DNA from: Methanoplanus limicola DSM 2279
GTDB taxonomy: Archaea; Halobacteriota; Methanomicrobia; Methanomicrobiales; Methanomicrobiaceae
DNA length: 64,000 bases
Assembly (NCBI RefSeq): GCF_000243255.1
Contig: NZ_CM001436.1
Coordinates: 692 to 64,691 of the forward strand
Direction: 5' to 3'
The translations under genes and the position numbers were made by a program. The notes beneath the pieces are model-generated. The model did no database searches, had not been told where the DNA came from, and was given only the letters and a program-made list of their open reading frames with translations. Shown one piece after another: positions 38,109 to 57,705 of the stretch (positions within the stretch are counted from its first letter, which is position 1; the number at the start of each line of letters is the position of its first letter).

Positions 38109-38300
38109 TCAGTAGCGCCCGATGCTGTCGAGTTCTTCACGCACAACAATCCGGACGGCTTCTATATCAAAACCGCCCTTCTTATCCTTCTCTTTTAAGA
38201 GTTTCTCCATGGTTCTGATACCTTCGCTGATGCTGTTGCCATATCTGAGTGCAGTCTCAAGTGCATCCAGCTGCACCCTTACAACCTTTGAGTCGGCCAT
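38109..38300 (-). CDS. Small helical conserved-looking protein
   Basis: A 63-residue protein with no Cys and no membrane segment, predicted to be mostly helix: VRVQLDALETALRYGNSISEGIRTMEKLL, then a KEKDKKGG turn and DIEAVRIVVREELDSIGRY. The first lines resemble a ribbon-helix-helix start (VVRVQLDALETAL), but it is too short to be sure. It lies 14 bp ahead of the metallophosphoesterase gene on the same strand, so the two are probably cotranscribed. I do not recognise a family. Confidence 0.6.
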   Translation of the reverse strand: MADSKVVRVQLDALETALRYGNSISEGIRTMEKLLKEKDKKGGFDIEAVRIVVREELDSIGRY

Positions 38301-38395
38301 GATTAATATTTTAAAACAATTGCAGATAAATGTTACATAATGCTACACCTGGACCATCTCCGCAAAAAAAGCAAAAAAATGAGAGAAAAACAGAT
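38301..38395. other. Leader region of small helical gene; T-tracts
   Basis: No gene. On the minus strand this stretch holds several oligo-T tracts (for example at 38366-38372 and 38374-38380) that follow the candidate RNA at 38396-38645. They would stop its transcription before the protein gene at 38300. Confidence 0.45.
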
Positions 38396-38645
38396 AAAAA
38401 GAGAGGTTTCCTGTAAGTTCTGTCTTCAGACAGGGTAAACAGGAGATCTATGAAAGAGTTTTGAGGTATCTGACATCTCGATGTGGAGGTTACATTTATG
38501 CAGTAAAAAGATGCCCCTCTTCTGTGTTAGGAGCACAGTATGGACATTCTTCTACTTTGCCGGAGATCACAGCAGTGCAGAGAGTTTATCCTTAGATGTC
38601 AGATAAGGAACACTGAATTCTGCCCTGCTCACTCACGACAATTAT
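38396..38645 (-). ncRNA. Candidate structured small RNA with its own promoter and terminator
   Basis: An intergenic unit on the minus strand. A TATA box TTTATATC (38663-38670) predicts a start near 38640. A perfect 12-bp inverted repeat, TATCTGACATCT (38467-38478) with AGATGTCAGATA (38594-38605), closes a 115-nt domain that contains a CTGTG/CACAG hairpin (38522-38538). Near the 3' end a nested stem, CTGTC-TTCA-GACAG (38420-38433) inside CCTGT/ACAGG (38411-38415 and 38438-38442 by eye), is followed on the minus strand by repeated T-tracts. It matches no RNA I know (not SRP, RNase P or tRNA). It also contains a 24-codon frame with CPYC. Confidence 0.5.
38496..38570 (-). CDS. Possible CxxC microprotein (very uncertain)
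   Basis: A 24-codon frame starting at GTG and ending at TAA, encoding VEECPYCAPNTEEGHLFTA as its C-terminal part. The CPYC pair is typical of small zinc proteins, but such proteins normally have two pairs and only one is here. No clear ribosome binding site is seen. It lies inside the candidate structured RNA, so it may be a chance frame or the coding part of a dual-function RNA. Confidence 0.15.
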   Translation of the reverse strand: MISGKVEECPYCAPNTEEGHLFTA

Positions 38646-38662: not shown

Positions 38663-38702
38663 GATATAAATTCATGCCGCGTGGGGTGAAAGTAAAAACT
38701 CT
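38663..38702 (-). promoter_or_regulatory. Promoter of candidate RNA: 20-nt element shared with uvrA, plus TATA box
   Basis: On the minus strand AGAGTTTTTACTTTCACCCC (38683-38702) is identical to 54698-54717 upstream of uvrA. It is followed 12 bp later by TTTATATC (38663-38670). The element stands upstream of the TATA box, the usual place for an archaeal activator site. No other copy was found in the window by eye. Confidence 0.65.
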
Positions 38703-54697: not shown

Positions 54698-54743
54698 AGA
54701 GTTTTTACTTTCACCCCGCATGCCTGAATCCTCATTTATAATA
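54698..54743 (+). promoter_or_regulatory. uvrA promoter: 20-nt upstream element and TATA box
   Basis: AGAGTTTTTACTTTCACCCC (54698-54717) is followed by TTTATAATA (54735-54743), which lies 28 bp ahead of the ATG at 54772, so the message has a very short leader. The identical 20-nt element precedes the TATA box of the candidate RNA at 38.6 kb. It is probably a regulatory site, perhaps for DNA damage control. Confidence 0.7.
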
Positions 54744-54771: not shown

Positions 54772-57705
54772 ATGAAAAACATTACAATAAAGGGAGCAAG
54801 GGAGCACAACCTGAAAAATATCAGTGTTGAAATTCCGCGTGACAAATTTGTTGTCATAACCGGAGTTTCAGGCTCCGGCAAATCCACCCTTGCTTTTGAT
54901 ACAATATATGCAGAAGGGCAGAGAAGATATGTTGAATCACTCTCCGCCTATGCAAGACAGTTCTTAGGCTTAATGAACAAGCCGGACGTGGACTCAATAG
55001 ACGGTCTGTCCCCCGCAATATCAATAGAGCAGAAGACGACATCAAAAAACCCGAGAAGTACTGTCGGAACAGTCACCGAGATATACGATTATTTAAGGCT
55101 GTTATTTGCGAGAATCGGAATACCCTACTGTCCGGAGCATGACATCAGGATTGAGTCAAGAACACCTGAAAAAATATCAGATGCGATATCCGAGGACTTC
55201 AGAGGAATGGTCACTGTCCTTGCTCCGGTTGTCAGGCAGAAGAAAGGGACATATCAGCAGCTGTTAAAGGATCTCGACTCAGAGGGCTTCACCAGGGTTC
55301 GGGTTGACGGTGAGATCATCAGGACTGATGAGGAGATCACACTTGAGCGGTATGTAAAGCATGACATAGAAATTGTCATTGACCGGATTGACCCTTCAGA
55401 AGAGAGAGCAAGGCTTGTCGAGGCAGTTGAAACTGCAATAAAAAAATCTGACGGACTGGTTTTCGTCACCGGAATTCCGGCTGAGAATAATCCCACAGCC
55501 GGAAAAGATTCTGGTAGAGATTACTGTTCAGAAGAGAATCATGACGAAACCGGAATCTCAGGCGGAGATTTTGGAGATGATAATTCAGAAGAGAGAATTC
55601 AGGAAGAAATCAGAGAGACGATCTACTCCTCAAAGATGGCATGTCCGGTATGCGGGTTCTCATTTGAGGAACTTCAGCCGAGAATGTTCTCATTTAACAG
55701 CCCGTTTGGAGCCTGCGAGGAATGCAACGGACTTGGGATAAAGATGGACTTTGACCCTGACCTCATAATTCCGGATAAGAACAGATCAATAGCCGACGGT
55801 GCGGTTGCGACATACAGAAACTTCCTTGACGGTTACAGAAGCCAGTACCTCGCTGCTGTTGCAGGGCATTACGGCTTTGATGTATTCACTCCGATAAAGG
55901 ACCTCACTGATAAGCAGTACAAAGCTCTCATGTATGGATCAAATGAGAAGATCAGGTTTGATATGAAGATGAAAGGGGGAGAAGCACACTGGTCACACAA
56001 CGGCTCATGGGAAGGCCTTCTGCCACAGGCTGAGAGGCTGTACTCACAGACAAAATCGGAGTACCGCAGAAAAGAGCTTGAGAAGTTCATGAAGATCTCA
56101 AAATGCCCGAAATGTGACGGTAAGAGGCTTAAGCCCTCGGTTCTTGCTGTCCGGACGGGCGGCAGGACAATTGCGGAGGTGACCGATCTCTCGATAAGCC
56201 GTGCAGCTGAATTTTTCAGCGGGCTTGAACTGACCGCTAAAGAGCAGGAGATTGCAAAACAGGTCTTAAAAGAGATCAATTCACGCCTCCGCTTTCTGGA
56301 ACAGGTCGGCCTGGGATACCTCACACTATCAAGAAATGCAGGCACACTCTCCGGCGGAGAGGCACAGAGGATCCGTCTTGCAACCCAGATCGGATCAAAC
56401 CTTACCGGAGTTCTGTACGTCCTTGATGAACCTTCAATCGGCCTTCACCAGCGGGACAACCATAAACTGATAGAGACCCTGCACAGGTTACGTGATCTCG
56501 GCAACACTCTTGTTGTAGTTGAGCATGATGAGGATACAATCAGAAATGCGGATTATGTCATAGATATGGGACCGGGTGCAGGAGTTCATGGCGGAGATGT
56601 CATCGCAAAAGGAACTCCGGCAGAGATTGAAAATAATCCGGAGTCCCTTACCGGGCTGTACCTGTCAGGAAAAGAGAAGATAGAAACGCCGGTTAAGAGA
56701 AGAAAAGCAGAACATTTCATCCGGATTAAAGGTTGCAGACAGAACAATCTCAAAGATGTCGATGCCGCCATACCCGCAGGACTGCTGACTGTTGTAACCG
56801 GAGTATCGGGTTCAGGCAAATCAACCCTGATATATGACACCCTTTACAGGGCGCTGATGAAGGATGTCTATAAATCAAAGACAAATCCCGGAGATTACGG
56901 GAGCATGGAGTCTGACATTCCGGTTGACAAAGTAATAGTTATAGACCAGAGCCCGATTGGAAGAACACCAAGGTCAAATCCGGCGACCTACACCAAGGTA
57001 TTTGATGAGATCAGAAAGATCTTTGCAGAAACAAAAGAGGCAAAGATCAGGGGATATAAACCGGGAAGATTCTCCTTTAATGTAAAAGGTGGAAGATGTG
57101 AGGCCTGTGGCGGGGAAGGCCTTATTAAAATCGAGATGAATTTCCTGCCAGATGTGTATGTTGAATGTGAGGAGTGCAAAGGCAAAAGGTTCAATGCGGA
57201 GACACTTGAAGTTAAATATAAAGGTAAGTCAATTGCAGATGTTCTTGATATGACTGTTGAGGAGGCATACTATATCTTTGAGAATGTCCCGACAGTCAGG
57301 TCAAAGCTTGAAACCCTGTGCAGAGTTGGACTTGGATATATCAAACTCGGCCAGAGTTCAACCACACTCTCCGGCGGTGAGGCGCAGAGGATTAAGCTTA
57401 CAAGGGAACTGTCAAAGAAGGCCACCGGGAATACGGTCTATCTTCTTGATGAACCGACAACAGGGCTTCATTTCCATGATGTAAAAAAACTGATATCTGT
57501 TCTTGACAGTCTTGTCGGGAAGGGCAATACTGTCGTTGTTATTGAGCACAATCTCGATGTCATCAAATCAGCAGATCATATAATAGATCTCGGCCCTGAA
57601 GGCGGTGAGAAGGGTGGTGAGATCATAGCCTCCGGAACTCCGGAAGAGGTTGCTGCATCTCCGGCAAGCTACACAGGACAGTTCCTTGCAAAGATGCTCA
57701 ACTGA
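54772..57705 (+). CDS. uvrA: UvrABC excision nuclease subunit A
   Basis: A DNA-damage recognition ATPase of nucleotide excision repair. Its 977 residues hold two ABC ATPase halves: Walker [15 protein letters not shown] near 32 and [14 protein letters not shown] near 685, and signature [14 protein letters not shown] and [14 protein letters not shown]. Zinc modules are [18 protein letters not shown]...CEEC and [16 protein letters not shown]...CEECKG. An acidic insert (about 245-285) rich in Glu, Asp and Gly lies ahead of the first zinc module and is not typical. Archaea use the bacterial system here, presumably acquired in the past. Confidence 0.97.

Follow-up and report, generated by a model that had tools for sequence, protein, structure and literature searches.

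A predicted structured small RNA behind a DNA-repair-type promoter in Methanoplanus limicola

In bacteria, SOS-controlled small RNAs are driven by the regulatory sequence that DNA-repair genes use, and the SOS-induced type I toxins are short peptides made from mRNAs of that regulon. We know of no LexA-type control in archaea, and how repair genes are coordinated in euryarchaea without LexA is largely an open field. In the Sulfolobales, the DNA damage response element ANTTTC is bound by Orc1-2 (PMC9738581). Among methanogens, Methanosarcina mazei sRNA162 is described as a trans-acting archaeal small RNA that masks a ribosome-binding site with an unstructured single-stranded segment (PMC3510493).

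The locus studied here lies in a window of 64,000 nucleotides of the M. limicola DSM 2279 genome (NZ_CM001436.1). Its minus strand, read from about 38700 to 38364, carries in order an upstream promoter element, TTTACTTTCACCCCACGCGG (38677–38696); a TATA box, TTTATATC (38663–38670), that is identical in the same-genus genome; about 250 nt without a convincing reading frame; and four T-tracts of 5, 5, 7, and 6 residues (38400–38396, 38390–38386, 38379–38373, and 38369–38364) that form an archaeal-type termination region (38364–38400). Transcription would run leftwards, from approximately 38641, as judged from TATA box spacing, to approximately 38390, as judged from the T-tracts, yielding a predicted small RNA of about 250 nt (38390–38641). 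The TATA box, long stem, hairpins, and T-tracts named in the original prediction were thus all recovered on this strand, in the right order for such a transcript. The gene for a 63-amino-acid protein (38109–38300, minus strand) lies downstream and is not part of the RNA; its product is 98% identical between the two species and has no Pfam match.

Within the predicted RNA, a 12-bp closing stem, TATCTGACATCT/AGATGTCAGATA, is formed by fully (100%) complementary arms at 38594–38605 (5' arm) and 38467–38478 (3' arm) that together span 139 nt, with pair probabilities of 0.73 to 0.85 here and 0.67 to 0.94 in the relative. The stem encloses a small hairpin, TGCTGTGATCTCCGGCA (38558–38574), which holds GATCTCC in its loop, is identical in both species, and appears in the consensus fold. 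The C-rich CUCCUAAC (38526–38533), a possible seed, lies within an invariant block of the otherwise variable apical region, and GCUCCUAAC in the same block has a mean unpaired probability of 0.56 here and 0.95 in the relative. A conserved and mostly unpaired stretch, AUACCUCAAAACUCUUU (38453–38469), lies between the closing stem and a nested terminal hairpin (38409–38444) that is indicated by the consensus fold and pair probabilities and whose stem letters are identical in both species. No compensatory pairs were present between the two homologues, which are the only two sequences available for this comparison. A seemingly covarying helix (AUGUCC/GGGGCAU versus AUGCCU/AGGCAU) was not counted, since its probability was only 0.1 in the window's own RNA.

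Structure by itself exceeds chance only weakly. Perfect inverted repeats of at least 12 bp spanning no more than 300 nt number four in the window versus zero to three in shuffled sequences, and the minus-strand fold has a z score of −2.16 (4 of 200 shuffles as good). The plus strand folds less well (z = −1.43) and has no promoter of the repair-gene kind, and a plus-strand reading was dropped on these grounds. Conservation and the promoter element are what goes beyond chance. In the sole same-genus genome of our set (G001), the block is found at the corresponding position, flanked by the same genes. Over 246 aligned positions the two RNA sequences share 82% identity, compared with 67% (162 of 243) at fourfold degenerate sites of four neighboring genes and 49% in adjoining intergenic DNA beyond the promoter; the first two T-tracts fall inside the conserved block. 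By self-search and covariance model, the block is single copy in both genomes of the genus. Outside the genus, a covariance model of the RNA (R1) returned only chance matches among 199 genomes, the best of which (G061, 22.3 bits) lay inside protein genes, and the exact stem pattern was absent from the genome contigs searched, from which near-own records were possibly left out.

Known RNA families do not account for the locus. Covariance models for archaeal RNase P RNA (RF00373) and archaeal SRP RNA (RF01857) gave no match here and placed the genome's own copies at 2740797 and 1215085, which bears out the original view that the RNA is neither of these. No Rfam 15 family reached its gathering score at the locus; the one match, to SCARNA7, was a chance match at 11.9 of 65 bits. 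Elsewhere in the window, two tRNA genes on the minus strand (2453–2524 and 2592–2663), of equal score and 67 nt apart, are probably a tandem duplicate. Taken together, conservation, promoter, and terminator-like end make an undescribed structured RNA gene at this locus a well-supported prediction. That core of the original proposal stands, while its suggested CxxC peptide and inserted element do not.

The main point beyond the original prediction is that the promoter, by its sequence, belongs to the radA/rpa/uvrA set. When the region was searched against its own genome, the upstream element alone was dispersed to any degree, and its other copies face uvrA, a gene for an RPA-type OB-fold protein, and radA. 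The strongest single result came from a weight matrix trained on radA promoters from 28 genomes that belong to other genera: among all positions of the window, the candidate RNA promoter ranked first (27.3 bits) and the uvrA promoter second (27.0 bits), with every other position at or below 10.4 bits. The site is kept in the same-genus genome (26.1 bits). The uvrA element lies at 54704–54723 on the plus strand, and its gene, recognized by its frame and a Pfam UvrA_inter match, begins near 54772. Across the order, the element was found upstream of radA in all 30 genomes scored, drawn from five families and part of a sixth, with ACTTTC invariant and only 0 to 8 of 300 shuffles as good. Pattern searches across the family found it, in several genera, before radA and before RPA-type genes; it also precedes an Mre11-like gene, and the pattern was about three times commoner than its reversed control in 27 family genomes. 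Neither this element nor a DNA damage small RNA in methanogens was described in the open-access literature covered by a nonexhaustive search.

Because its promoter carries the element of the radA, RPA-type, and uvrA promoters, in the correct placement and orientation, the RNA probably belongs to a RadA/RPA/UvrA DNA-repair regulon. Control of the element by DNA damage is suggested by the genes that stand behind it. The genome's two Orc1/Cdc6 genes have no such element upstream, and the idea that they are autoregulated members was dropped for that reason. Two protein families of unrecognized function recur under the element, one of about 60 amino acids (MSQTFYLLAERA-type) and one of about 139 amino acids (MLKKAGYVQ-type); their loci are L076, L085, L090, L067, and L095, and L049, L064, L079, L092, L245, L262, L266, and L269. 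A further copy of the element (L039/L056; near 2328057 in G000 and 771136 in G001) is followed by about 200 nt that are nearly identical in both species and hold no long gene, making it a candidate for another RNA or a very small protein of the same regulon.

Two element loci with no gene directly behind them (L045 and L046) led to a parallel RNA in Methanoculleus. A covariance model (R2) found this RNA in 32 of 35 genomes of the genus (E < 1e-11) and gave no convincing match outside it among 232 genomes of the order; ten of its loci had no Rfam match at an E value of 0.5. It is about 95 nt long: a hairpin leads into AUACCUCC(U/G)AAC, in many cases with another ACCUCCU after it, and a T-tract comes last. 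All 32 sequences form the hairpin, three pairs of which show compensatory changes, and anti-Shine-Dalgarno words number 157 versus 40 in shuffled sequences, a fourfold excess that none of 300 shuffles equaled. The RNA (L148–L207) lies upstream of a phage integrase family (XerC-like) gene. It shares with the candidate the radA-type element, the arrangement and spacing of the TATA box, a T-tract end, CUCCUAAC, and AUACCUC, but it is shorter, has a single covarying hairpin, and carries tandem anti-Shine-Dalgarno motifs, unlike the candidate. Since the R2 model found no match at the candidate locus and homology is not detectable, we describe the two RNAs as similarly arranged rather than as a single family.

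On balance, we favor a separate small RNA, about 250 nt long, transcribed from the minus strand behind a repair-type promoter, made together with repair genes, and acting by base pairing. Given the common element before radA, the RPA-type OB-fold gene, and uvrA, the RNA would be expected whenever those genes are induced. Its C-rich, at least partly unpaired segments, namely CUCCUAAC, AUACCUC, and the loop GAUCUCC, could then cover the ribosome-binding sites of target mRNAs during repair. Such pairing is the most likely mode of action, though unproved, and it is the weakest step of the proposal; for the candidate it leans mainly on the Methanoculleus RNA under the same element. The candidate itself contains six anti-Shine-Dalgarno words versus 3.0 expected (116 of 1,000 shuffles as high; not significant; 64 of 1,000 for the RNA of the relative), so we treat the base-pairing step as a working hypothesis. 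It also counts against the proposal that Shine-Dalgarno-like words precede only 13 of the 37 long open reading frames of the window, where the background is 15%.

Other explanations of the locus were weighed against this one. The region could act like a riboswitch or attenuator, as a structured 5' leader to the genes for the 63-amino-acid protein and the metallophosphoesterase, its terminal hairpin and T-tracts forming a conditional terminator. The RNA and the 63-amino-acid gene do share a strand, the RNA lying upstream at a distance of 90 nt, and the 5' arm of the stem can pair otherwise as a local hairpin (5 to 15% in the ensemble). However, four T-tracts precede that gene, which has a conserved upstream block of its own, GTAGCATTATGTAACATTTATC, in the two species behind a spacer of varying length, and the promoter is of the type seen at repair genes while the 63-amino-acid product belongs to no recognized family; we therefore regard a leader as unlikely. 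Alternatively, the transcript may be a small mRNA of the regulon that encodes a short peptide, much like the SOS-induced type I toxins, and whose untranslated parts are structured. The small proteins of 60 and 139 amino acids encoded at other element loci would fit such a reading, as would frames of 16 and 21 codons present in both species, but 16 to 21 codons is short, and in the 16-codon frame almost every difference, judged by eye, alters the amino acid. A CxxC microframe (ECPYC, minus strand), from which a dual function had been proposed, does exist here but is broken in the relative, and the RNA body differs by one indel of 8 nt and another of 1 nt, neither a multiple of three, which speak against an ordinary coding frame. 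A peptide mRNA is accordingly somewhat harder still to credit.

That only the promoter is conserved and the downstream structure incidental would agree with a stem and folding energy close to chance, yet the 246 aligned downstream positions are more conserved than fourfold sites, and this conservation extends through the first T-tract, which makes a promoter-only explanation very improbable. The 12-bp inverted repeat is bordered by AGG at each outer edge, which had also raised the prospect of an inserted element, such as a MITE with terminal inverted repeats. The AGG flanks are indeed present, but both species keep them at the equivalent locus, conservation runs past the repeat on both sides, and the RNA is absent from viral contigs. 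Dispersed copies with target duplications were not found in either genome, each of which has one copy at the same locus. With the block single copy in both genomes, the insertion idea falls, and we give it scarcely any weight.

A broader and decidedly more tentative proposal, which we would place well short of an even chance, is that Methanomicrobiales possess an SOS-like damage regulon defined by YACTTTCRC-N3-6-CRCGG before radA, RPA, and uvrA, to which several lineages added an anti-Shine-Dalgarno small RNA (about 250 nt here and about 95 nt in Methanoculleus) that may switch off the translation of selected genes while repair is under way. An element common to radA, RPA, uvrA, and noncoding RNAs offers a concrete, testable regulon with an RNA arm.

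Compared with the bacterial SOS small RNAs, the likeness is that a control sequence of repair genes would drive an RNA, and the difference is that the host here is an archaeon. The Sulfolobales element ANTTTC fits the core ACTTTC found here, and both occur in repair-gene promoters (PMC9738581). A fit of six letters with one free position is a lead and not a test; the element described here is longer, with a conserved CRCGG part, and the genome's two Orc1/Cdc6 genes do not carry it. With sRNA162 the candidate shares a methanogen host and, if the proposed action is right, the same kind of action; the two differ in promoter class, and nothing in the description consulted ties sRNA162 to a repair regulon (PMC3510493).
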